Positions 5,031 through 62,651 of a stretch of DNA of 64,000 nt are shown piece after piece. Position numbers and translations under genes: made by a program. Location: positions 496,001-560,000 of the forward strand of contig JADANN010000351.1 of assembly GCA_018806985.1 (NCBI GenBank). The letters run 5' to 3'. The notes beneath the pieces are model-generated. The model was not told the DNA's origin, ran no database searches, and saw only the letters and a list, made by a program, of their open reading frames with translations. Position 1 is the stretch's first letter. Every line of letters begins with the position of its first letter. The stretch is from Angiostrongylus vasorum (Eukaryota > Nematoda > Chromadorea > Rhabditida > Metastrongylidae).

Positions 5031-8000
5031 GATCTTCTGTATCGTCGTATGCGATGTCTGGCCAACTATGAAGCTGCAAACAAGAATCTCGAGCGTGCAC
5101 GCGGTCGCAACAAAGACATTCCAAAGGTATATTTAATTCATAATATGAGATGTTTAAACCATCGTTTCTCCGCAGTGTTATTCTGTTTTTCCTTAGACTT
5201 ATCCGATTCATAATCTTAGTGGATAGTACGAGGAGAGAAACATATATCGTTCTACTCGTTTCACCCATTCTGACGTTAAATTCTTCAGGAACCAATATGC
5301 AGAATGAATTTGCAGCTATTTCGTCCATCTCATTTTAGAACGCGTTTACTTCGCTCTAATCAGTCCTCAGCCCAGTCTCTTCTCCGGAATAGTGAAAGTA
5401 GCGTAGTTAAATTGGCTTTCTCTTCTTGCTCTTTGTTTTCACGTCTTTGTAGGATACCAATGAGGAACTGCGATAAATTCAGATTTGGAGAACTAAAGGT
5501 CGACATCATAAGTGAGAAACTGTTCGAGCATAGTTGACTTCGTGTGTAACCCCAGTTTAATCGTATTTCACCAATATTTTCACTGCTTGACTTCGTTGTA
5601 GGGAACACCCATATTAAAGGTGCTGGCAATGGTGTACTGCTGGTTGAGCGACTATTTTAAACACTCCTCGATTTTGCTGCATCAAAATGAGGTTTATCAG
5701 GTTGTCACTTATTCCCTGTGAACATAGTGGTGATTCCTGGTAGCGGCTTATTAATACCCGAGATTTTGAGATTGGAATGAACCCCATATCACCTTAGTCC
5801 ACCGTGTAACCACTGAGCAACGTCTCCATTCGTCACTGGAGTCCAGCAGTGTCCCTTACTCGTTCGAGCGACACGATTGCTATCTATCGCACTTACAATT
5901 TTTCTTCTATTTTTGGCGAGTCTGTTTCCACGCTCATTATGTCTTGACTAAGTGTGAGGGAACTGCATTTATTCAAGGGTAGCTTGTGGAATGTGCCCAG
6001 AGATGCACGCCCTATTTTTTGGAAGCAACTCCGAAGCACTCAGCATGTCCTTTTTAACCGTTAAGGTTTTATGCATTTGGCTGATTTAATATGCACAATA
6101 TAATTAGCATACAAGCAAGCACATCCATGCATGAATGCGTAGATGTGGTCAGGTTTCTGCGGAACATATAGCTGACGCCAGTCTGCCACATTGAGACAAT
6201 TATTTTCTGATTTCACCTTGCTTCTCTGAGTTCTTGAAAACATGGACAGTTTGGTTTGCGTTTTATCAATGTTTTTTTGTTATCTGAGAAACCGATAATT
6301 GGCTTGAGGTCAATGGTTTCTTTTTTCATAGAAAACGATAATGAGTTTTTTTCGGAGAATTTTCGAGGATATCGTAGTTGTCAAGCTTCTCGTCGTTTAG
6401 GTGATTCTTAATGTTCGAAAACTTGGGAGACTGAGGCCCTGCTTACTTGTTGTACGGTCGTGAAGGAGAATAGATACCCTACTTTAAATCCTGTAGTTGC
6501 CTCTGAGTCAACTATGCAGCATGAGGTCAAACGCCATTGAAAGGTTGCTCCACAGATCTTTTCTATAGTTCTCCCTTTACATTACTGCAATCTAGTAATG
6601 CTGCTGTATTCAGCGTTTAGCCTCAACAATCCCATTCGGTTCCAGCAGCTCTTTAAAGAGCAAACTTTGTGACTGAGTTGCCTGCTGCTTTTTGTTTAGG
6701 CACAAAAAGACATGGCTATTTTTGTTCTCGTAACTAATTCAGTGCTAATTTGCACCCGCAGCTTTCCTCAATATGTTTTATCGATTCAGGTGAAAAAAGC
6801 AAATGCGTCGTTTTCTTGTTCAGCAATCGCGAGGTTGTTAAACAGCATACATTTACTTCCATAGAAAAACACAATACAATACAATAGTAGCTGACGTTTC
6901 GGCAGTATCGTCTTCTTCAGAGCCTGGAAGGGTATACTGACATACAATTTACTAGGCCAAACGCTTCAATGACACTTACAAAGAGACGAAAAACTCCATG
7001 GTAATTACATGGTCAACAGCTTCTCGAAAAAAAACTCACCGCTTTTTTTCGTTACTTCCAATGAGGAAGATTAGGACAGCTGATTATAGTCGCATATGGT
7101 TGATGACTGCACCACCCTACATCAGAAATTGACGCGAACATACGGGCTCAGGTCGCGTATGACCTCTGGGCATTCATCCCTGCTATTCATTGTAGGGTTT
7201 TTGGCATTTATCCAAAAAGCCTCAAGAAGTTTTCGCGCTGGTGTTCTAGTCTCCTGCGCAAGGATATTGACTTTTACTTCAAAATCGTCCCCGCTGTGCT
7301 TTTGCATCCTATGCGTGCCTAGTGGGGTACTTTGTCTTAGTTTTCGTTTGCCATCTAGGTGTTCTTTTATACGGATACACAAAGGCCTGCCCGTTTCGCC
7401 AATATATTCATCTCCGCAATTATTACACGAAATCAGGTATATCGTACCTGAACTCATGCAATCACCATCCCTGCCGTAAAGGGCAGATTACGCAATTTGT
7501 TGTTTCGCATAGACGGTCATACAGGCGGTTACGAACTAACTGACGACGTAGAGTAGCTGGTGGTATTTCAACTATCGCTACCGATTCCTCTAGACCTGCC
7601 CTTCTTAAGCATCGTTTAATCGCTACGCTTACTTCATCGCTAATAAAGGGCAGCATAAACGGGACTTTCTTTTGGCCAAGTGTTTCGCTTGGGCGCGTCG
7701 CTCTCCTTCTAAACTTATCTCGTGGGGTTACTATTTCGTAGCCATTGGAGATGGCTATTTGCCGAGCCAAGTCGCGCGATTCTTCCTTTAGTTCCCCTGG
7801 TTGTGCACACAGAGGTGGCTGTTCGAAACATGTTTCTCACAAGCGCCCTCTTTGTGTGTGAAGGGTGGGAAGAAAGGAAGTGAACGAGGATGTTCTTGTT
7901 ACTTGGCTTTCGGTACCACTTTGTCAGGTAACCGCTACTTGATAGGCTTATTTGGACGTTTAAAAACGGAAGCCAGTCTTTTCTCGGTTTCTCCCGGGTG

Positions 8001-9755
8001 AACTTAATGTACTCAGACTGCTCGTTCAATAATTCAAAGCATTTGTCCATCTCCTCCTGCGTAGAGAAGATGACAAAACAATCATCTACATATCTGCAGT
8101 AGAGTAGTGGCCGGAGATCGAGAGCAGGGGCTTCTATCTTAGACATGAATACAATGGCAAGGCTTGGTGCTAGTCGCTGTCCCATAGCCAACCCCCTTAT
8201 TTGCGCGAAATATTTCCCAGACCATCTGAAAATCGAGCAGTTTAGGCACTCCTTTAGGAGAGCCATTAGCTGCTGAATGGACAAGCCATGCATATTTATT
8301 CTTCCTTCATGTTTAACAAGAAGTTCGAAGATGGCTTGCATTGCGGAGTCATTCGATACGTTGGTGTACAACGCAGTAACGTCGAAGGACTCCATCACGT
8401 ACGCATTATTAGGAGACGCGTTACGTAGACGTTCTAGGAACATTTGGGTGTTTGTGAGGTGAGTTGGAATATGGTTAAGCAACTGGGTAAGTATTAGGCT
8501 TAAAAAACCAGGTTATTCTATCCGTTGGCCCGTCTACACAGCTGATGATGGGTCTAACCTTAAGTGATGACGGATTGGTTGACGCAAGATCATCAGGTGA
8601 TACCAACTTATGTGTTTTAATAAGTAAGTATAGGACGGGCGATTGCTGAACAAGGAAACGACGCATTCATATTCCAATGCCGAGGTTAATAGAAAGTCGA
8701 TCCTGGGAACTGAAAAAGCAAAGTTAGATATTCTGACCTGCAAGTTCAAGACGTGATTTGTCAGAATGGAGGCGATCTCTCCAGGCCATGTGTACTCAAG
8801 TCTGCCCGTAAATAATGTTCACCGCGCCGAGTGTTTCCATCAAACATGATCTGCCGTCACGAGGCAGATCTTTGCATCTTGTGTACCTCTCGTCGGTCGT
8901 ACAACTTGGTGACTAGGATTTTTTTGATCATCCGTTTCAACTCATTGTTATTTTCCCCCGTTTAGAGCTTGCTTTTTTATATGCTTCCTCCGGAATGTTT
9001 CAGATTATACTCTTGCATAACAAACTGGAAAAGGATTCAAACTGGTTTGAACGTCAAGAAAAACCTTGGAAATGATATAGTCAAGGGTTATCTTGTTTCG
9101 TTTCCCAATTCAATATGTGGTAGTACAGATTTGCACCTGTCTAGTCTGCCGAGTGAAAATCTCTGAGCGCTTGGGTGAATTTGGCACAGAATAAATCACA
9201 TTTCGAAACCCATATGTACTTCCGACCATGATGAGCCGCTGGTGGTATATTTACATGTGTGTGTACATATTTACACATATGTATAAACATGTATTATATA
9301 TACACATGTACATATGTATATATATACAGCTACAGTTACATTGTAGTTACATTATACTTACTTGGATGGCCTGTCTTCACTGGTTGTGCAGGCCCAAGTA
9401 TAATTTCTGTTCTCCGTAAATTTGCTGCTTTAGCCATTTTTAGTTCTCTGGAGTCCCGAGGACAACCTGGCCAATGTCTGCCCCAAGTCCTCACCACCAC
9501 AGGTAATAGTCGCCTTTGTGGATCAGAAGGAGTTTGCCACCATAAGACTAGCTTGATACCAGGACGGTGGTGGTTCCTGGCATTGTTTTACTCTTGACTA
9601 GGCTTCTTGATGGAAACCCCAGCCTCCACCTCAATTTGGGAGACCCTACCGGGGGGACGATTCCATCCGCTGCACATCGCAGCCCGATACACAGGAACAC
9701 CTCCAAACCAGGATGAGTCGGTAGACCGTTAGGACAGTTATGCTATATAGTATTG

Positions 9756-9794
<39 letters not shown>

Positions 9795-12700
9795 TATATA
9801 TATACATATACTATATATATATACACATATATGTACATATATGTGCGAACTGTGCATTAAAACATTGAATACTTTTAAGTTGACTGAGATATAGTAATAA
9901 GTTTTTTACCGACACTTTTAAAACATGAACTCATGCACAACTTTATTAATTAAAGTTGAAACCACTAGGATATACAGCTTTTTATCGTTCATAGAATTTG
10001 TATGTATTAAGGAGACATTTGAACTTGAAATTTACTTTAGGGATGGTCTAGAAGTGGTGCTCACTTGGCTAGACGTTCGATCAGGACGCTGAACTCGAGA
10101 GATTCGTAACGCGGTTGTTCAACTTTTCCAACGTTGTTTATGTATCGTGTTGTCGAACGCTGTCATGTAGAAACATTGAACGCTTTCTGTTGACAGTGCT
10201 GGATATGTACGTCGTGGTTTTGTAACATTTTACGAATTTCGCATTCCATTTCTCAGCACTGATTGTTTCGTCAACATTGAGGAAGCTGTTGGGGATCAAT
10301 TCGACTGTACTCAACTAAATAGTCACCATCACCTTTTAGTACAATTTTCTTTTGGAAAATGTTTTTGAAGGTTCGTTATGGTCCTGTCAATCTGCTGAAA
10401 ATCGTCGTTGGTTCTCGTATAAAATCCATTTTTCGTTGCAGTGTCGAGAACTGGGTCGCTTTTGTGCATAAACCAAGCGAAGAGCAGATTTATGATGACG
10501 AGATTTTTCACATTTCAATGGCTTTCAAGGGACAGACGACTGTTGAATGGTTATCGTTCGAGTTCTGCATTCTGTCGATTTATTTTTTAATCGGTCAGCT
10601 TCACGCGGTTGTCGTGAGCTAACGATGGACCTTCTTCATCATCAAGTTTCATGTCTCCGATACGAAGCTTCAAACCATCTGTTTAGTGTACATTCGGAAT
10701 CCTAAATCACACCTGTAAAATGGAATATTGCGCTTATTATTGTTCTAAATCAAGTGTCAAGAATACTTCGAAAATTAGTTATCACCTGTCGTCCCGTTGA
10801 TCGTCAACTGACTCAAGTGGGCGCTACTTGCTCAGGGCACCCGCTGAGCATCATGTTTATCTTGTAGGGTTCTTGTGAACAACTGTGACCATCGGCTTGC
10901 TGGTCTTCCTGTTGTTCGTTTGACGTTCAGAGGAATCCACTCGCTCACGGCTCTTGTCTATCGATTATCGTTCGTACGTATTACGTGTCCGCCCACTTTA
11001 TCTTCTCCATTTCGGCGTTTTATGGGCCAGAATAGTTTTATAACAATTATTCTTTAAAATAATGTTCATTAACAATGTGAACGAGTATGCATTACTAACA
11101 TCGCTCCATCACTTTTCGTTTGGTCCAAATTTGACATGCAGAATTTACTGAGGTGGTGTTTAACATTCACGGATCTCATTCTCTGTATCTTTTTTTATTT
11201 CCAGTAGTTTTCCAACCATTTATCTTTATATTGTGGTAAATAGTGTCATTGTCTTACAAGCTGTGTGGCATATTCTAGGCTGAGACTGAACAACAGGAGG
11301 CATGCAAAAAATTTGAGGATATCAGTGCATTAGCAAGGACCGAGCTGAAAGATCTTAAAAAGCGCCGTGTGCTGGCTTTTAAGAAGAATCTTGCTGATCT
11401 TGCCGATCTTGAGATTAAACATGCTAAGGTACGTAAGGCTAACAACTTCAGTATGCAAAGCATCGGTAAATCAGAATAGATTTTATACATAGTTAGTATA
11501 ATAACAAACTTTGTTTTGTGTTACTGAAGACCATACACTTTATCAAAATAGCTTTTTCGAATGTAGAATGAGATGAAAACCGGACACGATAAGCATCGCT
11601 GGGAAGTTTTCTGTTTATTCGACTAGGAAAGAATACAGACGTTATGCTGTAAACTTTCTGTTATAACATTAACTCTTATTTTATTTTCTTATTTCTACTA
11701 GCTGTACAACAGTCTATTTAATCTGACTTGGATTAGTATTGTATCTTCCAAAATTGCAGACATAGAAGGATCATTCATTGGTAGATCCCACCGATTACGC
11801 TCACTCTTCGCTTGTTTTCTTAAACATTTCTCTATTCTTAGTCCTCAGCTACGACAACTCTAAAAAATTACTTTAGGAGAAAAGGAAGAAAAGTAAATAG
11901 TGATAATTATGCCCTCATGGTTCTTATTCATTGCTAGTCACCGAAGTTATTCAAGGTCGTCCTTTTCTTCGATATTCCGAATCCGAATGTTGATGGGACC
12001 CAATCTGAATGTTATTTCAGAGATGTTAAACAAGGATTATTGAGCTAGAAATTTTTCTTCTATCTCATTTTGAACAACTCGACATCCCATGTTTTATGGA
12101 TTCCAATACGTATTGCATTCAGTTCGTTTTCTCGTATAATCATCCATGATAGTCCTCATGTTTGTGTGTTGGTTCAGCTACTACTTGACGATCTTGATCG
12201 CCTCTACGAATCTCGCTGAATGCTAGTCAGATCCAATTCCCCTCAATTCCTGAGATATCTGTATTAGGGGTTTCTCCGTTCTCGTTACAGGGAGTCGCCA
12301 CGTTTTATCAACTGAGAGGAGTTAGTAGCTCTCAGAGCAGTATGAGTACCAATCCTTGACCATGGGAGGATAGGAAGATCAGTGGGACCAAGGTAGGATT
12401 GAACCAGCATGGTGATCGTTCTAAACGGCATCACTGTTAGTGCACCACAACCAATTTTTTTCTGCAACCCTTCACAGTAAAATTTTATGGTATTTAGCGT
12501 AGTAATGAAGTGTGCAAGTTGTTGTATAGTTCTCGCATTAAATTTCTAGTAGCTCATTTAATAAAGAGCAAACTTGTTGCGAAATCTTTGTAATATGTGA
12601 TTTGACTTGGTAGTACATTTTAAACCGTAGCTAGGTTGTCGAAACATTTCTATCAGTACTTTTGTACACTGATAATATCTCTGTGAAAATGATGCATCGT

Positions 12701-14240: not shown

Positions 14241-14412
14241 ATACATATATGTACATACATATACACGTGTATATACATATATATACATATATACACGTAT
14301 ACACTTATACACATACGTACACATGTATATGTGTGTGTAGATGTATACGTATATATATATACATGTATATGTATATACATACGTATTTGCTTGTGTATTT
14401 TCTATATGTATA
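14192..14412. repeat. TA/TACATA microsatellite
   Basis: A (TA)n core followed by imperfect TACATATAC repeats on both strands. The Tyr/Ile-rich frames in it are artefacts of the repeat. Confidence 0.95.
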
Positions 14413-14429
14413 TTTATGTGTACCATATC

Positions 14430-14805
14430 TCCCAACGGTTTACTCTCTCATCTTGGCTTGGAGGTGTTCTTGGGTGTACAGGTGGCTGCGATGTACAGCG
14501 GGTTGATTCATCCCCCGGCAGGGTGTCCCAACCTAACAAGGAGTCCGGCGTTTCCATCAGGAAGCCCAGCTAAGAGTAAACCAATATCAGGATTAACCAC
14601 CGTCGTGGTATAGCAATTCTCCCTCTATTCGACAAGTGCTGCGACTGCCTGTGGTGATGACGACTTGGGGCAGACTTTGGCCATGCTGACCTCGGGATTC
14701 CAGGGAGCCACAATGGCTAAACCAGCAGATTTCCGGAAAAATGGAGATTATGCTGCGGTCGGTTCGCACAACCAGTGAGGTCGGGCCATTCAAGTATGCA
14801 GGTAA
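14430..14805 (+). repeat. Family S3 repeat
   Basis: Reverse orientation to the 9358 copy. It shows GGAGGTGTTCTTGGGTGTAC, the GGAGTCCGGCGTTTCCATC landmark and TGACCTCGGGATTCCAGG. It abuts a microsatellite on its left, as the 9358 copy does on its right. Confidence 0.75.
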
Positions 14806-14975
14806 GGTATATGAATATACTAGAAAGAAATCGACGTGTTAGTAATTGGTGCTGTAAATTTTGTTAGTAATGTAGAATTAATGGAAGTGTATTTAGAAGG
14901 ACTAATAGTTGTTCAACAATTTGCATTTTGTTGATCAGTAGACACGACGTTGATACTGTACTATTTTTTAACACT

Positions 14976-15012: not shown

Positions 15013-15201
15013 TGAACAGCGAATTCAAAATCAAAGTTAAAAAAGCGTTGAATGTCGAAGTTCATAAAAAGTCGGTTTTGGGAATTTACAATTGTTCAGT
15101 TCATCTCAAACCGACCGTCATTTGACCTAGGCATTAGAAATCAATCTTCTATGGCTTCTTGGATTCTTAAGCTAACGCTAGGTTTGAAAGAACGTTTATT
15201 C

Positions 15202-15236
15202 GGCTGACGTTTCGACGCCTTCGTCTTCCTCAGAGG
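15202..15236 (-). ncRNA. Hammerhead-like motif with perfect stem II
   Basis: On the minus strand: CTGAGGA, A, GACG-AAGG-CGTC, GAAAC, GTC, AGCC. Stem II pairs at all four positions. The 5' stem I arm (CCCT) has lost complementarity to AGCC. It lies about 225 bases from the 14976 motif in the same orientation, like a tandem pair. Confidence 0.6.
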
Positions 15237-15537
15237 GAATGCTCCCAGTAGATGGTCCACAATTATTCGTCTTCCCAACGTGGCCACTTCATCGTCCTGT
15301 CGCGTCGAATCTTCTTCAGTGGAACACCGTTTGAGTGAGCTGGAGTGAAGCAACTTAACTCATCGATGCTCTTTTATATAGGACAGTTGTTGGTGATACT
15401 GGTTGGCTGTTGGTAATATTTTTTTTCAACGGACAATCCACCGTGCTTGATTCGGTATTATTAGCTAGCAATTAGCGAATCAGTATTTCTCAACTGGTCA
15501 ATTGCTTCAGCTCTAAATTTACACGTGCTCTGTTCTT

Positions 15538-21329: not shown

Positions 21330-21662
21330 CTTGTTTCATTGATAATCTAACAGAAAGATGTTACGAAACATCTGTTCGGCTGACGACTCGACGTTCTTTT
21401 CTTCCTCCGAACCTGTGATTCAAATCAGTGTCCACCACAGTCTCTCTTGTTCTAGCCGATGTGGTGTCTTCGTAATCGCATGGAGTCGAATCTTCTTCTT
21501 CAAATCGTCAGTGCGACTGCGAAGATACCACGTCGGGAAGAGCAAGAGTGACTATGGACATCGACTCGAATTATCGGCTCTGAGGAAAACGAAGACGTCG
21601 AGACGTTAGCCAGGGTAAACATTTGTTAACAACCTTGTGTTAGCTTATCAATGAAACAAGAG
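21330..21662. mobile_element. Fold-back element with two hammerhead-like motifs
   Basis: The left arm contains CTTGTTTCATTGATAATCTA and a degenerate minus-strand motif at 21378-21413. The right arm holds the reverse complement (TAGCTTATCAATGAAACAAG) and a better plus-strand motif at 21576-21611. That motif reads GGCT, CTGAGGA, A, AACG-AAGA-CGTC, GAGAC, GTT, AGCC. Its GGCT/AGCC arms pair fully, but GAAA has become GAGA. The loop between the arms is about 160 bases. It is probably a non-autonomous relative of the Penelope-like element ends. Confidence 0.65.
21576..21611 (+). ncRNA. Hammerhead-like motif, GAGA core variant
   Basis: GGCT CTGAGGA A AACG-AAGA-CGTC GAGAC GTT AGCC. Stem I is complete and three of four stem II pairs form. 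The GAAA to GAGA change is expected to weaken or abolish cleavage. Confidence 0.5.
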
Positions 21663-23769: not shown

Positions 23770-26700
23770 ATGGGTTCAACAGAAGGTGGTGGTGCGAGCG
23801 TCCTCACTTCCTGTGGTTCTACGAATTCTACGATGAATAGCAGCTCCGGAGAAGCACTCCACCGAAATGCACAGTCAGCACTGGTGAACCTAAATCAAGC
23901 GGCATCCACAGAAGCTGGAGCGTTCTCTATGGACCAGCAACAACCAGGAAGCGGTGGTCAGCCAACACCGGTGTGGCCTAATCGAAAGGAACACTACGTT
24001 TTGGAAGATGCTATTGGTGTAGGTGCCACAGCCACTGTTTATAAGGTTTGTGTATTACCAGTTGGTAAGTTATTTCTGCTGTTTATTATAGTGTTGATAA
24101 TAAGGTAATGGATTCAATCGAAACTTGATCACTCTGACTAGATTTAGTCCTTCATCCTTCCTTTATAAGGGAAGACTATAGCGTCCTTTATTTGTTAGTG
24201 TTGGACCACAGTTTACCCTATTATTTCTCCATTTCCCATTTCCGCATCTTTCAGGGGCACCTAAGCTGACTGTCCATGATTAGATTTGCACGTCGTTTCC
24301 CCACTTCATAAGTGGTGTGACCTTATAGTTAAATGTGTTAGATCATTTTTAAGGTTTTACTGATTCTTAAGCCTATCTAGAATAGGATTTGGACGAAGGC
24401 TAAGTTACGATCCCGATTTCGATTTGATTGGCTAGTTTTTTTTCACCTCATCACATTTCATATCGAAACTAGAGTAACATTATATGTGATGAAATTGTAC
24501 AGAATGCTATGGTTGCGAGGATTTCAATGATTAGACGGGTCTTTTAACGATAAGGGATGGATGAAGAAACTTTTCTGTTGGTCACAATATTACTGAAAAC
24601 GATGTCGCTAGAGGTCATTGAAGTACCACCTCATGTTTAGAGATTGTGGGATGATGTGGGTTCAAAAATGGACTAGTGCTTATTATGGGAGTCTTTAAAA
24701 GTTGTTCGAAAAGAAAAGAAGTGTGTGCCGTAGCTGTCGGACGGGTGAATATAGCGTTTCGTTTCGATAGCATCGATCGACCTGTTTCAAAATGCTGGTT
24801 ATTGAAATAGCGAACTTTGTTACAAAAAGTGCACCACTTTTTCGTCCACGCCTACTTCTATTTAATTCTGTTCTTCTTTAAAGGTCAAAATGGCTCATTT
24901 CTTAGGGACAGATTCTACAGGATAGAATATGCGAAAAGATCATTATGGAGATCATTCTTTAATTCTTTACCAGCATGGAATTCGGGAGCTTTTATGAGTT
25001 GGGTTATATAGAAACGGCTCTTTGGTTTATAATGACACCGTGAAAATGGGTAGCCAATTCATTAAAACACCTTTACTGATTAAATATCGCTAGCGAATTA
25101 ATTCTAGTCCTAATCCCTACTCTGTAATCCTAATCATTATTCCAAAATGTTGCTCTGTATTGTTACCACGTTTGTTATAGGCCATTTGCACACCACGTAA
25201 CGAGCGCTGTGCCATTAAGTGTATAAATTTGGAAAAATGTCAGACATCGGTGGATGAGTTAAGCCATGAGATTCAGGTTGGTATTGTAATTATTGTGTAT
25301 TTGTAATTCTTTATATTGTGAAGTGGGCAATACTATTTTCCGGAAGTAATTTAGATTAGGCGTATCGTGTAGCTGGTAATGGTCTGTGAGGTAGCTCTAG
25401 CCTTTCACATAAATCTCTACGAGTAGTTGGTGTTTGATGAGACAAACTAGTTTTTTTTATAGGCAATGTCATTATGCGCTCATCCAAATGTGGTGAGCTA
25501 CCACACATCGTTCGTTGTCGGTGAGGAACTATGGGTAGTAATGCGACTATTGAATAGTGGCTCAATGTTGGACATACTAAAAAGGAAAATAAAGGTAAAC
25601 ACATCGCTCTATAATTCCCAGGATCGACTTTCTGTTAAGCTCGGGATTGGATTATAAATTCGTCGTTTTCTTTCTCAGCAATCGCGAGGTTGTTATACAG
25701 CAGACATTTACTTCCATACAATAACCTACATACAATACAACCGTAGCTGACGACTCGTCCACCATATGCGACTCTGAGCGGCTGTTCTTCCTCGGTAGAG
25801 GACAGATGAAAAAAGCGGCTCTGCAGAAAGTGATTCTGCCGAAATGTCAGCTACGGTTGTGTTGTATGTGTATCATCGCTCTATAATTTACGCTTTTATG
25901 GGTGCTGTTTTGGTACCGTTCTAGTTGTAGATAGCATTCTTTTCAACTATGAAATAAAGTTTAAATGACTTGAAATTGATTGTCAACGAAAACGTTTTAT
26001 ATGACTGCATCATCTGATCTTTGGTTGGATGAAAATGAATGGTGAAGAGTATTGAGCTGATATCATTTGCACTAATCTGGCGTTTTTTTCTTCTATAGTC
26101 ATGTAATATGTACCATAAAGTTAGATCGGCAATTCCTCAAATTTATGTGCGGTTCAGGCAATTGGTAAAGAACAGGCTATGTATGGAGTGCTAGATGAGA
26201 CAACGATTGCTACTGTTTTACGTGAAGTACTAAAAGGCCTTGACTATTTCCATTCTAGCGGACAGATTCATCGCGACATCAAGGTAAGTCTCTGTGTTTT
26301 GCTAGCTGTGTTGAAATGCTTTAGATATTCCTACAGTGTCATGAAGATGTTCTGTTTTCTGAGCTAAATAAAAAAACTTAGATCCTATTTCTCTTATCAC
26401 TGTCTATGTTACTCATGAATAGGGATTTATGAGGTTGTTTTTGAAAAGTATTGTTTTTTTAACCATCATCAGAACGACAGAAATTACGAGATTGATTACC
26501 AGTGATTGATAATAACAAAATGCATCTCCACCGAATTAACTGGTCTGTCATGGCTTTTTTTTCTGGAGAATGTTTATTGCTTTCTAGGCGGGTAATATTC
26601 TTATTTCGGATGATGGTACTGTGCAAATAGCTGACTTTGGTGTGTCTGGTTGGCTAGCTTCTTCAGGCGGTGATCTTTCTCGTCAGGTATATTACATTTG

Positions 26701-34585: not shown

Positions 34586-35179
34586 ATATATTAAAAACAC
34601 CTTATATTAGTTGTATCTTTATAAATTCATCTTTCATCAAACCATAACTGGTTGACGTGATATTTCGCCGATAAGTAGTTCTTAAAGAAGGCGATAGTAC
34701 CGAAAAGTTAGCCACAATAACGATTTGGTTCCAAACTTTTATCGCTGTGAGCTTGTCAATAGAACAAAATGTTGATATATTTGTGAGTTCTCAAGCATTC
34801 CGTATGGCTGAATCCTGTAGAGTTTCGATTTACGATGATATGTGAACAACTGTTCTGCTTCGCACCATCAATTACATATTTGTTCCACTGGCTCGTACTC
34901 ACGAAGGGTGTGCGGTCACCGGCAGAATCCACGTTTGTTTGTTAATTTATGGCTCAAGCAAACTTTGCTTTCCCTTCATTCCCAAGATGACCATGGTAAG
35001 GCCTTCCTAAGTGGCCATCATGGAGGATAGTCGGCCGCACTTAGAGATCAGAGGGAGATTTGTCAATTTTCGACTATGTTGCTGCCAAGACGACAGGGTT
35101 TCTTAGTCCTGGTTTACTTCAGAGTGGGTTTCTAGGTGGATCGAACTTCTTTCTAGGTTAGGACACCCTGATAGAGAAT

Positions 35180-41800: not shown

Positions 41801-42359
41801 GGATCTCGAGCCGGTTAGTCGCGAGGCTACGTGGCGCATCCCCAGCTGCGGATAGGGGGTTAATCGCGAACCAAAAGCAACCTTTCCTTCTCTGAGACGC
41901 AGGTGGATCCAGGGGATGCACTCGCTGTTTCTGCTGCGCCGAATTTGGCATATACTTTCTGTATTTGTTAGGCGTATTCATGCATACATGTGTGGGTGCG
42001 TTCTAGTTTATGCAGATTGTATTCTGCGAGTCAATTCGGCCAAGAGCCTGCAACCAAGTGACAGGGAAGTATATGGGAGGCGGTTAGGAGTCGCCTCCAA
42101 CAAATAAGCTCCATGTCCACTCTGGGAGAGCCTGGCAAGCTACCCGTGAGTATACCCAGCCCCCACGTTCAGAGCCCAGCAAGCTATACGTGGGTATCAA
42201 AAATGCTAAAGCACAGTAAAAAAACGGGCCTCATTCCCCTGATCCCGAAAGATCCCCCAATTTCGCAGCGTTGGGTAGGACGAATACGGAGAGGCTGCTA
42301 AAATCTCAGGGCCAATGGAAGCTGCCTGGATTTCGAAGAACTACGGTGACGATCTGTAC

Positions 42360-45182: not shown

Positions 45183-45239
45183 CGGGACTGCAGGTGATAC
45201 AGGTGACTGGTGACTGTTCAAGCGCTCCGTGGATGGTGC

Positions 45240-48960: not shown

Positions 48961-49164
48961 TGATCTCTGTAGAACGTCTATCCAGAACGTAGGAAATATC
49001 CTCGTCATCATGATCTTTACCTTGAACAACTAACCATTTGAATCAATTATCTATAGTCAAAAAATATATGGAGAATGACAAGGATTGGCAATAAATTTTT
49101 TATGGATGTTCTTCTAAGCCTAAGCAGAAGAACAGCATTTATGATGATTATAAACAGTATTTAT

Positions 49165-49545
49165 AATAATACCTTCGGAGGGTTTACCGCCTCGTGGTGG
49201 CTGGGAGATGTTCCTGGGTGTCGAACAGCGATGTAGGGGGATTCGACCTCTCGGTAGGGTCTCCAAGCCGAGAAGGAGTCCGGCGTTTCCATCCGGAAGC
49301 CTAGAAAAGAGTGAACCAATACCAGGATCCACCACCGTCCTGGTATCAAAGTCGCATGGCGGCAAATCTCCCTCTGATCCACAAGGGCTGCGACTGCCCG
49401 TGGTGGTGAAAACCTGGGGCAGACTTTGGCCAGGCTGACCCTCAGGATTCCAAGAAATCACAATGGCTTAACTAGTAAGTCTCCGAAAAGAGGTGATTAT
49501 GCTGGGGCTTGCACAACCAGTGAGGACGGGCTGTTCAAGTATCAA
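49165..49545 (+). repeat. Family S3 repeat
   Basis: TTTACCGCCTCGTGGTGGCT, GGGGGATTCGACCTCTCGG (box B-like), GGAGTCCGGCGTTTCCATC and CACCGTCCTGGTATCAAAG. One of the best-preserved S3 copies. Confidence 0.78.
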
Positions 49546-49554
49546 GTAGCAAGT

Positions 49555-49800
49555 ATTTATATCCATACAATAACACACATGCAACAATCTTAGCTGACGT
49601 TTCGGCAGTATCGGCTTCTTTAAGGCCTGGAAGGGTATAGTGATATGCAGTCTACTATGTCAAGCTCTTCAATAACACATACAGAAATATGAGAATCTAA
49701 ATGGCAACCACGTGGTCAACAGCTTCTCGAAAAAACCCTGCCGTTTCTACGTGCCTTCCACTGAGGGAGAGCCGCTGATCAGAGTCGTATGTGGTTGACG
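49555..49800 (-). mobile_element. Penelope-like element, 3' end stub
   Basis: Matches 6870-7110 of the PLE: CATACAATAACACA, TAGCTGACGTTTCGGCAGTA, GGCCTGGAAGGGTATA, GTGGTCAACAGCTTCTCGAA and GTCGTATGTGGTTGACGA. It contains a hammerhead-like motif at 49592-49627 and stops before the coding region. Confidence 0.8.
49592..49627 (-). ncRNA. Hammerhead-like motif, degenerate core
   Basis: GAAAC, GTC and AGCT are intact on the minus strand, but CTGANGA has become TTAAAGA. Probably inactive. Confidence 0.4.
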
Positions 49801-51125: not shown

Positions 51126-51299
51126 ATAATGAAAGCTAGAAAGGATTCAGAAAAGTGGCTGAGAGAAATGCAGGTGAAAACGGCATCCGCTTCTAAAGTT
51201 TAGCTAAGCATTTTAAGACTAATGATTTCTTAAGATGTTGAGTACCATGACACACTCTGAGAAGCTTATATATCTTTTTTCTCGAGGATTCGGATAATC

Positions 51300-51335
51300 G
51301 GCTCTGAGGAAGACGAAGACTTCGAAACGCCAGCT
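51300..51335 (+). ncRNA. Hammerhead-like motif, intact core
   Basis: GGCT CTGAGGA A GACG-AAGA-CTTC GAAAC GCC AGCT. Both core boxes are intact, stem I forms with one G-U pair, and three of four stem II pairs form. The cleavage triplet is GCC instead of GTC, which is expected to reduce activity. GAATAAACC follows, as in other copies. Confidence 0.55.
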
Positions 51336-51477
51336 GAATAAACCTTTTTATCAGCCTTTTGTTAGCAGCTTAATAATCCAGAGGGTGCTCTGGACTTAGT
51401 TTCAGCTATCGATAAAGGTCGCAAAAAAAGTTGATCTGCTATTTATGCTGCATCTAAAGATACCTACTTGATACTTG

Positions 51478-51862
51478 AACGGCTCGTCCTCACTGATTGT
51501 CCAGGCTCCAGCATAAGCTCCACTTTTCGGAGATTTGCTGGTTAGCCATTGTGGTTTCCTGGAATCCGGAAGTCAGCCTGGTCAAAGTCTGCGCCAGGTC
51601 TTCACCACCACAGACAGTCCCAGCCCTTGTGGACATAGGGAGATTTGCCGCCATGCGACTTTGATGCCAGGACGGTGGCGGATCCTGGTATTGGTTTACT
51701 CTTAGCTAGGCTTCTTGATGGGAACGCCGAACTCCTCAGCCAGGGGAAGCCCTGCCAGGGGGCGAATCCCCTAGTTGTAAATCGCAAAATCGCAGCCCGA
51801 CACCCAGGAACACCTTCCAGCCACGATGAGGCGGCAAACAGTTGGGAGGCATCTGAAGATTA
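51478..51862 (-). repeat. Family S3 repeat
   Basis: GGCTCGTCCTCACTGATTG, GGACGGTGGCGGATCCTGG, GACACCCAGGAACACCTTCC. Same orientation as 9358. Confidence 0.78.
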
Positions 51863-52049: not shown

Positions 52050-53085
52050 ACATATACTTGTGCGAAATGTTCACTAGTTACCCAGTTTTCGAACTCGAAT
52101 TACATGAGTTCAATTCCTTCCTAGTCCTGAGACAACTAATACAACTTGATAAGAATCCGACCTTAGCACTGCTCCTCCACAAAACTGTTGAAAATTTGGC
52201 TATTCAACGGCCAGTATTATTGTAGCTTGCAGTATCGTAGCATTTTTTTCGCTTTGCGCTATTCTTAACTGGTTCAAGAGAAATATGACAAGCTCTTCAT
52301 GTAGGACAAATTGTATTAACTTCGTAATAAATACGTAACTGTGTTAAACAGTATAAGTCAACTTGTGTCTTTCATTAACAGTTCATTACGTTTTAATTCC
52401 TTGTCAGAGGAAAACAGTTCTGATTTCTGGGAATGATTGTTACTTCATTACTGGTTATAGAGCTCTGATGATTTTTTAACTCTGATTAGGTCAATTTCCA
52501 TGCCACTTATCGATTAGCATTATTGATCGGTGCGAGTGTGTTTAGTTCAAGACGACACGTGTTCGACCTTGAATTTCCTCAGTACTGCGGTTATTGAGAC
52601 TTCGAGTGGTTTCTGAATATCGTTAGAAAACGGCTTCTTCTCTTCCTTTAGTCACTTCATCAGTCATCGTTCTTTCACCTCTTCGTTCTGGGAAATGGAA
52701 TTCCTTCCATTTCCCAATATGAAGAGCTCTCTTTGGTTCTTATTTGCCCTCTGTATTTGTTATTCTTCTTTCCACACGTACCTCTTAAATTAGGAAGTTC
52801 CACAGTTTGCACTATATGGTGCGTTATCGTTTATAGTCATATCACGTTGAGATGCTGAATTCTGAATTTTCTGATGTTGGATCTTTGCTGTCTTCTGTAA
52901 CATTCGAATGCGAATCGATAATTGGCTGGTAGAAGAATCCTTAGAGGTTCAAACTCCTAATCCAAGGCTAAGAGACTTTGAGCATCTTGCGTAAGACCTT
53001 TAGCGGGCAGTCTTACCTCGAACGGGCAATATTCTGCCGAGGTGAAGATTAGGAGCGTACAATAAACGTTCTTATACTTGATTCT
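52050..53085. other. No gene recognised
   Basis: AT-rich DNA. A small imperfect palindrome at about 52948-53050 begins ACTCCTAATCC and ends GATTAGGAG. No other structure was seen. Confidence 0.5.
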
Positions 53086-53091
53086 TACTTG

Positions 53092-53480
53092 ATACTTGAA
53101 TGTCCCGTCCTCACTGATTGTGCGGACCACAGCATAGTCTCCACTTTTCTAAAATTTACTGTTTAAGCCACTGTGGTTCCTTGGAATCCCGAGGTCAGCT
53201 TGGTCAAAGTCTGCCTCAAATCTTCACCACCACAGGCAGCCGCAGCCACTGTGGATGAGAGGGAGATTTGCCACCATCCAACTTTTTATACCAAGACGGT
53301 GGTGGATCCTGGTATTGGTTTACTCCTAGCTAAGCTTCCTAATGGAAACGCCGGACTCGTTCTCAGCTTGGGAAACCCTGCCAGGGGATGAATCCCCCGC
53401 TGTACATCGCAGTCCGACCCCAGGAACACCTCGCAGCCACGATGAGGCAGTAAACCGTTTGGAGGAAACGTTGTTATAAA
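53092..53480 (-). repeat. Family S3 repeat
   Basis: GTCCCGTCCTCACTGATTGT, ACGGTGGTGGATCCTGGTAT, and CCCAGGAACACCTCGC. It lies about 420 bases upstream of the TTC17-like start codon. Confidence 0.78.
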
Positions 53481-53898: not shown

Positions 53899-56800
53899 AT
53901 GCAAAGGACAGTGGTAGTATTCAAAGCGATTTTGACAATATTCCTGGTTGTGAATAATGCTTCCTGCGAATACTATTGGAAAATCAGTGATGATGGAAAG
54001 GTGATCGAGGCAGTCGTAAGTATTCTGCTCGTTTTTTTCTTCACGAGCTAGGGGCATTTTGTAGGGCTCAACCGGACTACATTGCAGACATCCTTATATT
54101 TTCACAGTTTGCTTTCAGCCTGAGTCGCCATACGTGCTCGCTTATCCAGGTTCACTAGTGGATTTCCTTCGGCAAGTAGAAAGTGTTAAGAAGTTTGGTA
54201 AAACATATGTCGAACTTGCGAATGCACTTGTGAGTGTTTAACACTTGTAGTTGTAGAAGAAGTACCTACTTTCATCTTTGTGTTACTTGTAATGCTCAGC
54301 CTAGTTCGGCTGATGAAGTAAATGAACAAAGTCCCAGGAAGAATTTTTTTTTGGGTCTTCAGAAATCAATAAGTGAACGAGAGGCACGGGATGATCCAGA
54401 ACTCGAGCAACGGCTTCGCAAAGAAAGCGAGCATTGTACAATGGGTGGTTTAGTCAGTCTTGATCGGGAAAATTTCAAGACCTCATATTCAGCCGAGATT
54501 TGTCCGGATTTCCATAAACATTATGAAAAGTTAGTTTTTCGAGTGATAGTTTGAAATGTACATATTTTTGTTCTATTTCTATACGTTAATCCTCATCGTA
54601 GGAATTCTGAATTGATTTCAGATATATCGAATCTATCAAGGAATATGTGAATAAGGCACCGGAAGACGAGAAGCTGCTGCCACACTGCCGACAATGGCAT
54701 CAGGAGGGACAACTACGTGGACTATCGAAAGGGCGCGTAAAGCATGGTGGTTAGAGGCGTCCTGCAATACATATGGGATCGATCCCGTACCTAGAGCTTT
54801 ATCCTTTATCCTTTTATTATTCTGCGCTTTCTCATTGGTTGACAAGAATGCTTGCTAGATGCTAAAGTTTCACTGTTATCTGGCTGATGTCTGATTACAT
54901 TAGCATATACCCTCTCCGAGGATGTCGTTACAAAGCGCAGTCTTTCCTTTGTAAAGTCCAGTTTCTTTTCCATTCATAGGTGATAATTAAATGATATCAA
55001 AGGTGTACTAAATTTTTTCTGGCACATGGTTAGCTAGTACTCCAGAGTCTACTCTGAGTATTTCTAGAAATTTCTAAGGTTCATCGTTGAATTTAAAATT
55101 CGGGCATTGTGGTAGATTTGGACAAAGTTCAGTCGCTATCAATTCACAGATTCTTATCATCAGTTTGTTTATATTTGAGTGGGAATACAGTGGGGGATTC
55201 CAGACAGCGAACGATCAGAGGTTAGTAGTTCGGATTCCTGATTCGGATTATGCAGAAATACTTGGAGGTTACTTTCCGAATGTGAAGAAGATGGTTTCCG
55301 CAAGATCTCCCAGTTACGGAGCAATTCTTGCAAAGCTGTTGTCACAGCGTTCTCAGGTCCGTATATATTTCCCTTGTATATGCGTATTTTTATCGTCTTT
55401 GCGTTTTATTTAGGTTCTTTTCTTTAATTCTACTATCCTTTTTGTACGGCGTTATCCCATTATTTTTCAAATTAAGAAAAATTTTGGGAATTAGGTAAGG
55501 TAATTAAATTTGTATTAAAATTGAAAATTCGAGTCCAAATTTAGCATATTGGAGCACATCCATATCTCCATCTCGCTGCTGCTGCTTACTGGAGGCAAAT
55601 CGGTGATTTGGGTGAAGCACTTGGTTGTTATAAAACAGCAATGTTTTACGTGTAAATTTTTTTTTCGACTATTTTGCTTTTGAACAAAGTATAACTTCTA
55701 CGTAGACCTATATTTCACACAGCGTCTGCATTGAATTTTTCCTGATCTCTTATTTTGTTTGAAAGGACGACTTTCTATAGTCGTTACTTTCATTATGTGT
55801 ATTGTGAGTCATCTATGTCTCATTACTTCACATGAGAATAGGGTTTCTGTTGACGATTAAATAATTCGTTTCGCCTGTCTCTCGGCTAGTTCTATCGATC
55901 AGTGCCGTCAGCAATCACCCGTCAACGGGATTGATCTAGGGAGCCCACATCGGCATTGAACCCAGTTAAGCTGAGGCTGTAGTTGAATTCACAATGTTTA
56001 CTTTTTGTTTTCTGCCTTCTATAATTTTTATGGCAGGGTATTAAGTTAAATACAGGCACAAGATTGCTGAGATATTTGCAAAACTCCGGACCGCAGGTGT
56101 CTGCGTAGAGGGAACGAACGCGCTATTGTCCTTTCCGGGGAGTAACGCGTTCACCACCACACCATGTGGGTCCTTCGTTTCGCCTGCAGTCCGGAGTTTT
56201 GCAGATATCTCTGCAAAATTGTGGTTGTATTTCGCTTTATTCGGCTAACGTTTCGACGTTTTCCTCTTCATCAGAGCTGATGATCCGAGTCGATGGTCAC
56301 GGCTCTGATGAAGACGAAGAGGTCGAAACGTTATGCGAATAAAAGTGCTTTATCACCTCGTATGAGCTCAACAATTTAAACACATATCGGCCTAGTATCA
56401 AAGAATTATCGCAACTTGAATAATAATTGGTGACTTTTTCGGCAACCCTTCCACGTAATGGTGGCGCATGAACTAGTACTCGGATTGGAGCCATATATGC
56501 CTACAATACGTACTGGTTTCCTGATCCCCATAGCTTCACTGAACTATTTTAACATTGATAATTTTTCAGCAGATGTAGTAAAAGTTTCTTGTGAGTCTCT
56601 TTCCTACATATTTTGAGATATTCTGGCTCACTTCGCTATTCAGTGGTGGTTGTACACTACATCTGTCCTTTCATCATTTTTATTCTATTCTGTTGCCATT
56701 TAAGAGAAGAAGCAGCAGTAAATGGTGATGAGAGTGCACACATCAGCCTTGACGCGATCAGTATTGCTGCAGCCACGTTGTTCACTAAAGCTGACCAACC

Positions 56801-58761
56801 AGAGTCATCGATTGCTATTTTGGAGCAGTCATTTACGCTTGACGATCCAAGTGCTCATCCACCATGCGTGTTCCTAAAGGCACAGGCTGCACTGGCGGAT
56901 GCAACATATCTGAAGTTAAGTGCTTCACGAACGAATGGAGAGCTAGTGGAGAAAGTAGCAGATTTTACTCGTTTTGCTACTCACTTCTCAGAACCATTCA
57001 TTAAAAATCTGCTAGTTGTACCAAATGATCCCAACTATGTATCCGAGTTGTTGGAACTCCACGAAATGTTGTTACGAAAGTTGGGTGCGATGAGCTGTCA
57101 GATTGATCTGTTCATAGAACTCGCGAAGCAGAAGGAAAATTTGGATCATTTGGTTTCTGAAAAGTTGCGCTTCAATGATATTTATGGCGACCAGATTAAA
57201 GTAGCCGATGAGATACGAGAGCGGATGATTGACGAAGATGTTCGGTATTCTCTTAATTTAGCTTATGAAGAAGCGAAATACGGTTACAATCCTTATAGAA
57301 TATGTCGAACGACAAATGTGAAGAGATTTCCACGCTCTAGTAATCCCGGAAGTGTGATACTTACCTATCATTGCGAATTAACAGATCCGGTAGCCTACAA
57401 AGAGACAATGATGCCACTGAGAAGAGCAACGGCGAAAAATAGACCCTTGTTGAACGACACGATATGGCATGTCGCCGAAGTGTTCACGGAAGAAAAAGTT
57501 TTCAAGAAAAAGCTACAGTCGTCGAGCTCAAAAGCACCACTGATTCCACAAATGCAAGAGAAGTACCCACTCGATAGTGAGGTATACTCTACTGTGCGGG
57601 ATCGATTTTGGCGTCGTACTGATTGGCCAAGCAGCGTCGATTGCCAAACGATCATATCGCGGACGGATATATTCAAACAGCGCTGGTTTCCTCAGGTGTT
57701 CATCAGCCCCGAGAACAAAGGATTCTTAGTAACTGAATATTTGACTCGAGGAATCGGTTTAGAGTCACATGAAGATCATCCTTTGCCGTGGAAGGAACCA
57801 TACTGTAAGGAGGTGAATATGTTCGGGGACGAACTTAGTCTCTTTACTGGGCTGCTTATTACTATCAATACTGGGCCAGCAAGTGAATATTCCGAGTCGC
57901 GGTTGAAATCAGTGCTAGTACGGCTCGCCGGGCGAATTATGGAAGACATTGAAGTCGCCCAAAGAATTCGATCTATGATGGATATTAATAGCGGTCCAAG
58001 ATGGTTGGCGTTGAATTTGGCTGCTTTATACTGGCGAGTTAAAGGTAATCCGAAGCAAGCATCGTTTTGTTTAATTGAAGCAGTTCTTCTGCAGGTACTT
58101 TTATCTTCCTGCAACAGATTTTTCGGAACGCTACAATATATCGGACAGTACTATATTCCTAATTTAAGCCAGATTACGCTGATATCGCGTTTGTACAACT
58201 AGCGCAACTGATCCTCAAAGTGACCGGTCAGAAGGAAGAGTCGGCTAAACTTTTATTGATGGCCAGCACGGTCGACCCAGATGAAGTAACGTTTTCAAAT
58301 TTATTGTGGTTCAGAACCTTTTTGAAGTTCTTTTCCGTAACTACGAGAAGTTCGATTTTGAAAAGGGAATTTTAAGAAGTGAATCTTTTACGGTTTTTTT
58401 TTCCACATCACACGTTCATACGGTGAAGATATTGCTTCATTGTTCAGCCGGCAACCTACTGGCTACGTGCTCGGCTGGCGTTGTTATCTAATGATGTTGA
58501 TGAAGCGTTAAAGTACTTGAAGCTGTCGTTAGATAAAGATCCGTTCAACGACATAGTTGCTGAGGATCTGTTAAAGGTTGCTTGTAGTGGGAAGGTTAGT
58601 TTTCAAGTCGGAGTATTTAAACGATGGAATGTCTGGGAAATTTCAGGAGTAACCCGTATACATTGGCGCAAATTTGTTGTATATAAATGTACGTATGTAT
58701 ATACGTATGTGTATGTTTATATATACAACACATAGTGTACAGTATGTATATGTGCATATAA

Positions 58762-59825: not shown

Positions 59826-59827
59826 AC

Positions 59828-59858
<31 letters not shown>

Positions 59859-59917
59859 TATATAATGTATATACGTGAATAACACATGTGTATATGTACA
59901 TATATCTACGCATAGGC

Positions 59918-59918
<1 letters not shown>

Positions 59919-59965
<47 letters not shown>
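59919..59965. repeat. (TA)n microsatellite at the RTE 3' end
   Basis: About 23 TA units directly abutting the 3' end of the minus-strand RTE copy. RTE-type elements often end in short tandem repeats, so the tract may have grown from the element's tail. Confidence 0.9.
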
Positions 59966-59966
<1 letters not shown>

Positions 59967-59968
<2 letters not shown>

Positions 59969-62335
59969 CTCTATCACCTGTAGTCCCGTTGATCGTCGAG
60001 TGACTCGAGCGGGCGCCAGTAAATCTTCCAATTTTCCCTGTCGCGTGCAAGAGTAGCCCAGTTGGTTCTGCTCGCTCTAGGACTCGTCGAGCATCATACC
60101 TTTCTTCTAGGCTCTTCGTGAAGAACTCTGACCATCGGGTCGGGGTCTTCATGCACTACGCTTGACATCCCTATGAATCCAATCACTAACGGCTCTCGTC
60201 CATCGGTTGTCTTTCATACGCATTACGTGTCCGGCCCACCTTATCTTCCATTTAGGCGTACAGAACGGCATCTTTGATTTTTTGATCGTTCACGCAGGTC
60301 GGAGCTTCGGATCCCATCCCTCACTTGTGTGAAACCAGATACTCCTAGCATCGTCCTTGCATTCAGACAGGTAACGTGTGAAGAGCCGAGCCAGTGTGTT
60401 TACGAGTACTGGCGGAAGATTTTTCAGGTGTTCTGGTCTCATCCTCTCTGGACCTGGTGCTGTTCGATTTTTCAGCGACGAAATGGCATGTCGGATTTCG
60501 AAGGGAGAACCGGTGGTACAACATATCCATCCTCCTTTATTGCATATGACGGAGGCTGGACATGGCTGTCGAAGAGTAGTATTCGTGAATGATTTTCTCG
60601 ATTGCCTTTCTAGACGCTGTAACTGTTCGTATGGGCGCCGGAGTGCAATCATCTTGGTCTTGTAATTGGCAAAGCTTCGGTGGGCTTTGCGAATGCTTGT
60701 TCTAGCCTCTGCAGCTTCGATCGTTACTGCTGCTGTTCTGATTTTTAAGATCTTCTTTTATCGCCTGTCTGCATTGTTTTGCATATCCGGACGTTAGTTC
60801 GCGGTTGCCTGCAGGTCGTGCTATTCCAAGCTGGAGTATCGGCTCGAGTGTTTCTGGAGACAGACGTCTCTTGGTGACTTTCAAACTCTCAGCTTTCATA
60901 GCGCTAGCGTGAAGGTGTTGAATGAGCTAGTCGTATTCTTCGTCGATGTTATCGACAACGGAATCAATGAATTGAATGAGCCCAAGTTTGCGGTGGTTCT
61001 GGGATCTCGGTTTTTGAATTTAGCAGTTTTTCTCCTTTCAACGAGAAATAGAATTTTGCACATGGAGACGGTGGTCTTGTCCTATGTTGAATTTTGGGAC
61101 AACAGCGACATCGGTTAGGCAAAACCTTCTATTTACTATGATGTTGTCTATTTCGTTATGGTGCTATCCATTGGGAGACTCGAACGTCCAGCGTTGAGGG
61201 TGGAGCTTCTGGAATTGCGAGTTACCATGGGTGGTCTTGGTCGCCATGATAAACTCAGCCGCTCACCCTGTCCGTTCCATTCTAATCCATGAGTCTCAAT
61301 GTGACGTTCTTCAGACGTTATTCTTGGTCCAGTCTTGGCGTTGAAATCTCCAATGATGACCTTGAAGAATGTATGGTCTTCTCTGCAGAACTTCTCCAAG
61401 TGCCTATAGAACGCTTCGACTTCCTCTTCATCATAGTTTGATGTCGGCGCGTAAACGACGAAGATTGTCAAAGCCGGAATTGATCCACATCTTTTAAACC
61501 GTAAACGTCCGATTCGGATTGTAAGTTGTTCGAATGAATGATGCTCATGGACAAACTCGTGTTGACGAGAACGCCGACCCCGCCAACTCCTCTATGGTCG
61601 CATGTTCCGAGGAACAGTTCTTCTCCGGTGTCATAGACGGAGTTGAAAGGCTGGCGTCTTCTCGTCTCGGCCAGGCCGATGACGTTGTACTTTATCCTTC
61701 TTGCTTGCATGAGCAACTCTTCTATCGAGGACTCGGATCCAAGTGTACGTGCATTGTAGGTACAGATCGTCACCGTAGTTCTTCGAAATCCAGGCAGCTT
61801 CCATTGGCCCTGAGATTTTAGCAGCCCATCCGTATTCGTCTTACCCAACGCTGCGAAACTGGGGGGCTCTTTCGGGGTCAGGGGAATGAGGCCCGTTTTT
61901 TTTTACTGTGTTTAACATTTTGATACTCACTATAGCTTGCTGGGCTCTGAACGTAGGGGCTGGGTATACTCACGGGTAGCTTGCCAGGCTCTCCAAAAGT
62001 GGATATGGAGCTTATTTGTTGGAGGCGACTCCTAACTGCCTCCCATATACTTCCCTGTCACTTGGTTGCAGGCTTTTGGCCGAATTGACTCGCAGAATAC
62101 AATCTGCATAAACTAGAACGCACCCACACACGTATGCATGAATACGCCTAGCAAATACAGAAAGTATATGCCAAATTCGGCGCAGCAGAAACAGGGAGTC
62201 CATCCCCTGGATCCACCTGCTTCTGAGGAAAGCATAGGTCGCTTTTGGTCCGCGATTAACCCCTAACGTTACTTGGGACGCGCCACGTAGCCTCGCGACT
62301 AGCCGGCTCGAGGTCCCTCATGTGAAGGAGATCCA
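59967..62335 (-). mobile_element. RTE-like retrotransposon, internally deleted
   Basis: Same family as 41800-45225. The leader starts at about 62335 (ending CTCATGTGAAGGAGATC on the plus strand), the endonuclease spans about 61850-61150, and the linker and first RT part span about 60900-60370. The sequence then jumps from TRYLSEC to DDARSIWFHTSEGW. Comparison with the other copy places the missing piece at about 43815-44810, about 1 kb, including the FADD catalytic box. The endonuclease motifs are better kept here ([21 protein letters not shown]). The element cannot make an active RT. Confidence 0.88.
61148..61848 (-). pseudogene. RTE endonuclease, two overlapping frames
   Basis: The first frame (61848-61468) starts near the leader and includes TICTYNARTLGSESSIEELL, NVIGLAETRRRQPFNSVYD and GVGGVGVLVNTSLSM. 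The second (61471-61148) carries [32 protein letters not shown] and GLEWNGQGERLS. The junction near 61500 looks like a frame change. The family's endonuclease nicks target DNA for priming. Here it is disconnected from a working RT. Confidence 0.8.
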
Positions 62336-62468
62336 TGGTATATATGTATATGCCTATATATTTATTTATATGATCTTATAAATTGATCATAAGGTGATGT
62401 GAGGTTGGTATAGGTCTTCGTTGTCGTTGTTGTTGTTGTTGTCGTTGCTGTTGGTGTTGTTTGTCGAT

Positions 62469-62504
62469 GGCTGACGTTTCGGCGATTTCGTCTTCCTCGG
62501 AGCC
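62469..62504 (-). ncRNA. Hammerhead-like motif
   Basis: On the minus strand: GGCT CCGAGGA A GACG-AAAT-CGCC GAAAC GTC AGCC. Stem I GGCT/AGCC is complete. The core has one change (T4 to C) and stem II has three of four pairs. Confidence 0.6.
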
Positions 62505-62615
62505 GTGCTGTTATGAGTGAGATGTATGGACGAACGGGCGAGTATTATCATCAAGACCGAAAAAAACCTTTCCTTTCACTGCTGGATTACAAGTGGGTCC
62601 CACTTGTAACATCAC

Positions 62616-62651
62616 GGCTATGAGGAAGGCGAAATCGCCGAAACGTCAGCC
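62616..62651 (+). ncRNA. Hammerhead-like motif with complete stems I and II
   Basis: GGCT ATGAGGA A GGCG-AAAT-CGCC GAAAC GTC AGCC. Stem I and stem II are both fully paired and the GTC triplet is intact. The only core change is C3 to A in CTGANGA. Compared with the 15202 copy, stem II keeps pairing although two bases differ. Confidence 0.62.

Follow-up and report, generated by a model that had tools for sequence, protein, structure and literature searches.

The window considered here is a stretch of 64,000 nucleotides from the genome of the nematode Angiostrongylus vasorum (contig JADANN010000351.1, C351:496001-560000, of the assembly GCA_018806985.1, which comprises 280 Mb in 468 contigs). 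It carries a 5'-truncated copy of a Penelope-like element (PLE), whose reverse transcriptase (RT) is encoded by the open reading frame (ORF) 7715-8512(-) (RVT_1, E 2e-10), together with a dispersed family of short motifs built in the manner of hammerhead ribozymes. A first-pass annotation, made from the letters of the window alone, had proposed about fourteen such sites with a common order of arms, boxes and stems. Thirteen of them have this order; at the remaining site, 25744(-), PLE homology begins 20 bases into the motif, near the GAA box, and a covariance model of the family did not recover it in the window. This model was built from 38 sequences, 13 window sites among them, which are thus matches by construction, and it adds one weak site to the earlier list (34669-34721(+), E 4e-4).

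The motif occurs in several versions, for which the letters A, B and C are labels assigned in the present analysis. Family A, which belongs to a PLE with genes, reads CAGGCT CTGAAGA A GGCG ATAC TGCC GAAACGTC AGCTAC, while family B reads TCGGCT CTGATGA A GACG AAGA CGTC GAAACGTT AGCCGA and family C reads GGCT CTGAGGA A GGCG AAAT CGCC GAAACGTC AGCC. A fourth family has a 5-base loop (GGCG AAATC CGCC), so that the length of loop II differs by one base between families (4 vs 5). Conservation falls on the letters of the hammerhead core, namely CTGANGA (N free), GAA, A15.1, U16.1 and H17 (C or T), flanked by helices I and II, and all 12 core positions are kept in, for example, the genomic loci L046 (family A) and L002 (family B). 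The extra A that follows CTGANGA had been described as constant and proves to be nearly fixed, the genome holding 2,210 places with A, 98 with another base and 5 without one. Helix III is loopless, being represented by the palindrome ACGT (ACGU in RNA) between GAAA and the cleavage triplet, and because of this missing loop cleavage would need two copies. Offsets within the motif are counted from the C of CTGA, which puts the predicted cleavage site at offset 28.

The motif family is real. The 31-base window pattern CTGANGAAGRCGNNNNYGYCGAAACGTYAGC, allowing up to 3 mismatches, has 9 matches in the window and 0 in 100 dinucleotide-preserving shuffles, and a far more permissive regular expression, run over 249 kb, yields 55 matches against 8 in the reversed sequence. 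Genome-wide abundance was counted over 280 Mb as places within 3 mismatches of a core pattern, with the same pattern read backwards as the control. The family B core pattern is found at 6,412 places, the 5-base-loop form at 1,976, and the 4-base-loop core having A or G with T or C at stem II pair 2 at 2,210, each with a backward control of 0; these are different and partly overlapping patterns, whose counts are neither additive nor a census. A search of viral contigs with the motif pattern gave 0 matches.

The first-pass annotation had also placed several of the sites in PLE ends, and this is borne out by the RT loci of the genome, for which the best 30 of 144 scored matches were cut out as numbered loci. 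In 29 of these, all but L054, the motif is found downstream of the RT and on its strand. Two motifs enclose the RT at a spacing of 3,031-3,035 bp in five loci (L037, L041, L045, L046 and L048), of which L037 and L045 overlap within one array, so that the five are not all separate; these loci have the tandem or partial-tandem units with pseudo-long terminal repeats (pLTRs) by which PLEs are recognised. A GIY-YIG endonuclease follows the RT (PF01541, residues 356-442 of the L037 ORF, 22.6 bits at a cut-off of 22.6). Among the best 120 of 230 protein matches, the relatives are strongylid nematodes where named, many with RT and GIY-YIG domains, and Angiostrongylus fragments match part of the PLE protein used as query, at 67-91% identity. 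The motif occupies, on the RT strand, the noncoding junction between the end of one PLE unit and the first ORF of the unit that follows: the endonuclease ORF of L037 stops 203 bases before the second motif, and in L046 the first long frame has its first ATG about 100 bases past the predicted cleavage site. Moreover, 5-base-loop motifs at C18:230812(+) and C18:234191(+) lie on either side of a second PLE, whose RT (C18:232620-233402(+)) is 79% identical.

With regard to pairing, stem II had been said to change in a way that preserves its pairs. The example given stands, with GACG/CGTC at 15202 and GGCG/CGCC at 62616, but these are the only two of 13 window sites with all four pairs. At stem II pair 10.2:11.2 the genome holds 715 A-T, 1,299 G-C, 93 A-C and about 103 G-T combinations, the last by subtraction from 2,210. 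In the 38 aligned copies, 80.5% of the paired cells can pair against 76.4% after shuffling, and the covariation score is 0.244 against 0.193, with 0 of 500 shuffles as high in either case; like the genome counts, these values are uncorrected for shared descent. Sliding the partners leaves at most 40.5% paired. The genome counts and the alignment point to compensatory change in stems I and II, clear for stem II pair 2 and weak elsewhere. Additionally, single-strand folding of 12 copies returned exactly stem I plus stem II as the best fold of L046, a PLE copy of family A.

The window copies themselves are in poor condition (Table 1). To call the two boxes invariant was too strong for this window, as at least one core residue is lost at 9 of the 13 sites. 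The four core-intact sites (6889, 15202, 56243 and 56301) all have stem defects. The copies look broken and are read as dead insertions. Four of them, 15202, 51300, 56301 and 62616, had been put forward for transcription and cleavage assays, but 51300 and 62616 are without one core residue (U16.1 and C3, respectively), and such decayed relics are unsuitable constructs for an assay of this kind.

Table 1. Hammerhead-like motifs and Penelope-like element pieces in the window (positions 1-64,000).
Feature	Position	Strand	Remarks
5'-truncated PLE copy	6802..8639	-	reverse transcriptase 7802-8506; endonuclease region 7125-7475; motif and tail 6802-6932
Hammerhead-like motif, PLE family A	6881..6932	-	3' noncoding PLE end; core residues intact; A-C mismatch in stem II
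Inverted short PLE tail piece, other end of the 6802..8639 insertion	8639..8712	+	ends at +165; direct end at +120
Motif, 5-base loop	14968..15020	-	U4 to C; stem II broken
Motif, family B	15194..15245	-	intact core and stem II; pairs 3-4 of stem I broken; B-type copy matches 15098-15465
Motif, family B	21370..21421	-	three core changes; divergent partner of 21568-21619
Motif, family B	21568..21619	+	A14 to G
Family A tail piece with half motif (25744 site)	25615..25757	-	starts at motif offset 20; only the GAAACGTC half present
Motif, family A-like	25809..25860	+	A6 to C
Motif, 5-base loop	33499..33551	-	U16.1 to A
Weak extra site	34669..34721	+	covariance model only, E 4e-4
Motif, family A-like	49584..49635	-	C3 and G5 changed
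Motif, family B	51292..51343	+	full stem I; U16.1 to C
Motif, family B	56235..56286	-	intact core; single mismatch in stem II; divergent partner of 56293-56344
Motif, family B	56293..56344	+	core intact; stems I and II damaged
Motif, family C	62461..62512	-	U4 to C; divergent partner of 62608-62659
Motif, family C	62608..62659	+	full stem II GGCG/CGCC; C3 to A

The ends of the insertions give further information on the element. Many insertions consist of a direct piece and an inverted piece, which explains the outward-facing motif pairs; in the window these are 21378/21576, 56243/56301 and 62469/62616, and also 25744/25817, of which one member is a half motif. Among the first 100 of the 1,299 places of one form, all 11 neighbours within 5 kb are divergent, and the first 100 of the 1,976 5-base-loop places have 4 divergent, 3 tandem and 2 convergent neighbours. 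The 3' ends of family A (44 in number, with the window PLE counted twice, in the window and as L029) fall at +109 to +129 (22), at +143 and +146 (2) and at +162 to +171 (20). The two main groups lie about 48 bases apart, which agrees with the optional tail of some tens of bases expected of PLEs, and the loci with both ends combine one short and one long end in 10 of 10 cases. Within about 85 bases after the motif, both A and B carry a conserved stem-loop, AACCTCG-N41/42-CGAGGTT, with differing loops (for example L046:141-195 and L028:3783-3838); the pattern has 54 strand matches, equal to 27 places, and 0 in the reversed control. The 3' ends of family A fall in and beyond this stem-loop, which is a candidate start signal for reverse transcription.

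Family B, which is abundant and has a tail stem-loop of the same kind, shows no recognisable gene in the copies analysed. Its copies mostly reach no further than about 290 bases upstream and 150 bases downstream of the motif, and no PLE gene adjoins them in the loci examined. Small size, very many places and the missing neighbour would suit a retrozyme, in which short tandem units spread via circular RNA by hammerhead cleavage, and which might then account for up to about 6,400 places. Published animal retrozymes are likewise short repeats with type I hammerheads in high copy number, but they are arranged in tandem and mostly possess a real helix III (PMC7229834), whereas the nematode copies are dispersed and their helix III is loopless. 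Short tandem units bounded by hammerheads were not found for family B: among 31 copies there is one partial tandem junction, in L028, and its first piece begins about 10 bases past the predicted cleavage site instead of on it. A retrozyme is accordingly an unlikely description of family B. Most likely, family B is a non-autonomous passenger, or else it stems from another PLE as the truncated end. A search with its upstream part gave 40 scored matches and did not find an autonomous partner.

Taken as a whole, the sites very probably represent a minimal type I hammerhead motif of Penelope-like retrotransposons, one that would cleave when two copies come together. The proposal of a minimal hammerhead whose stem III is palindromic and has no loop is supported as to kind by the genome-wide evidence, while catalysis is predicted. 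Several results weigh against this interpretation. Pairs with two-sided change number 4 in the 38 copies against 4.5 in the shuffles, with 420 of 500 shuffles as high, and clear double change is concentrated in a single pair of stem II and in the outermost pair of stem I. RNAalifold predicts zero pairs for the same copies, and among the other single folds of the 12 copies, two of family B show both stems plus four extra pairs and the remaining nine deviate more. At none of the 13 window sites are the core, stem II and the inner four stem I pairs kept together. The Rfam hammerhead models, which the first-pass annotation had named as a check, gave no match in the window, either at gathering or at E up to 10, nor did they in loci L001-L008, L037 and L046 at E up to 10; both marks of the classical type I hammerhead (RF00163), a model match and a stable looped helix III, were absent from the sources tested. 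This silence is expected because helix III is loopless, but a chance resemblance would also give none; it means in any case that such copies are easily overlooked. Lastly, none of 57 family A 5' boundaries, some of them counted twice, lies at offset 28, the nearest being at 20 and 48, so that cleavage leaves no visible footprint in the insertions. The hammerhead of the Anolis PLE cleaves only with protein added and is dispensable for insertion in vitro (PMC11167929), and the missing boundaries fit that case, and equally fit no cleavage at all.

The unmarked cleavage site and the weak folding of lone copies, together with the position of the motif beside the stem-loop where insertions end, would also suit a motif that serves solely as a signal in DNA or RNA, for protein binding or for the start of reverse transcription, non-catalytic and resembling a hammerhead by chance. 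Against this, the conserved letters match the hammerhead core and have helices I and II around them, and cleavage has been measured for the hammerhead that another PLE carries at its pLTR/ORF junction (PMC11167929), which makes a purely non-catalytic signal quite improbable. A coding origin, in which the motif is a conserved acidic tail (GSDEDEDVETLAE and similar) read in one frame, is the least probable of all and was rejected on account of its frame breaks and noncoding position: translation in the frame of the GAA codon does give ET(S/L/P)A at 9 of the 14 window sites, with an acidic stretch in front of it at 8 of these, and in some family B copies the frame continues to a stop just past the motif, but no long upstream frame joins, a stop occurring within about 35 codons upstream at 13 of the 14 sites (the exception being 56301), the motif of the family A PLE follows the endonuclease stop by the 203 bases seen in L037, the change from a 4-base to a 5-base loop (1,976 copies) shifts the frame between the conserved boxes, and the exchange of GACG/CGTC for GGCG/CGCC changes the amino acid on both sides (D to G and V to A).

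For the two-copy hammerhead of PLEs, a mechanism can be outlined. In an RNA with tandem units, two copies of the motif would pair via the palindrome ACGU and share a helix III, and cleavage after GUC or GUU would then divide the transcript into pieces one unit long. The nearly fixed A10, as the extra A is numbered in a viroid hammerhead, may render the ribozyme moderate and not fast, and slow cleavage might let the element RNA survive for translation and copying. Furthermore, it is conceivable, though distinctly tentative, that the motif represents a separate hammerhead lineage, with A10 built into the core and a two-copy cleavage that is slow by design and perhaps assisted by a PLE protein, and that motif and stem-loop form a transferable cis module, captured by the very abundant, gene-less family B for copying by PLE enzymes. 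With thousands of copies in several subfamilies, a nearly fixed core insertion and clean insertion ends, the genome offers a naturally mutated set in which to study what hammerheads do in PLEs, a role that reviews have called unknown (PMC7761336).

The window contains other features besides the motifs. Two copies that are 89-90% identical where aligned, 41779-45206(+) and 59965-62338(-), are read as a non-long-terminal-repeat retrotransposon with reverse transcriptase-like ORFs, which we take to be RTE-like. A dispersed repeat of about 390 bases occurs at 9359-9837, 14336-14806, 38907-39305, 49158-49549, 51459-51849 and 53084-53464. Copies of it begin 74, 155 and 202 bases downstream of the motifs 49592(-), 51300(+) and 14976(-), respectively, and it is perhaps a preferred neighbour or target of insertions. 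An open frame of 535 amino acids at 56595-58202(+), for which Pfam gave nothing at E up to 1, is probably one or more exons of a host gene, presumably TTC17-like. Additionally, 32761-32890(-) has a sub-threshold match to the Caenorhabditis H/ACA small nucleolar RNA ceN80 (47 bits against a gathering value of 80, E 3e-6) and is possibly a diverged copy of such an RNA.

In the literature, no title on hammerheads in nematode PLEs appeared among the matches listed, which is no proof of absence as two key papers on minimal PLE hammerheads lay outside the scope of the search. The word stem 'nematod' is absent from PMC7229834, PMC6155905, PMC11167929, PMC7761336, PMC10085705 and PMC6466107. As for the extra A, it corresponds to A10 of the plus-strand hammerhead of chrysanthemum chlorotic mottle viroid, where it is unpaired between A9 and G10.1 and causes a moderate drop in the trans-cleaving rate (PMC3705267). 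The viroid hammerhead, unlike the nematode motif, has loop-loop contacts (PMC3705267), and kinship by descent is not claimed. A closer parallel in element structure is PAc, a Poseidon element of Anolis, which is likewise a GIY-YIG PLE with tandem units, a hammerhead at the pLTR/ORF junction and two end positions around a stem-loop (PMC11167929). The PAc ORF starts at stem II (PMC11167929), whereas the first ATG of the nematode element follows the predicted cleavage site at the distance given above, and PAc cleavage has been measured (PMC11167929), whereas that of the nematode motif is predicted. PLEs in general carry minimal type I hammerheads, usually without helix III and mostly dispersed, which may self-cleave as dimers (PMC6155905, PMC7761336, PMC6466107); such minimal variants were described by Cervera and de la Pena 2014 and by Lunse, Weinberg and Breaker 2017 (as cited in PMC7761336, PMC6466107). 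The nematode motif resembles them in its core boxes, stems I and II, loopless helix III, pLTR location, dispersal and expected dimer cleavage, and it may differ from them in its nearly fixed extra A between A9 and stem II. Dimer-acting PLE hammerheads are already published, and the nematode motif adds a case of that class.

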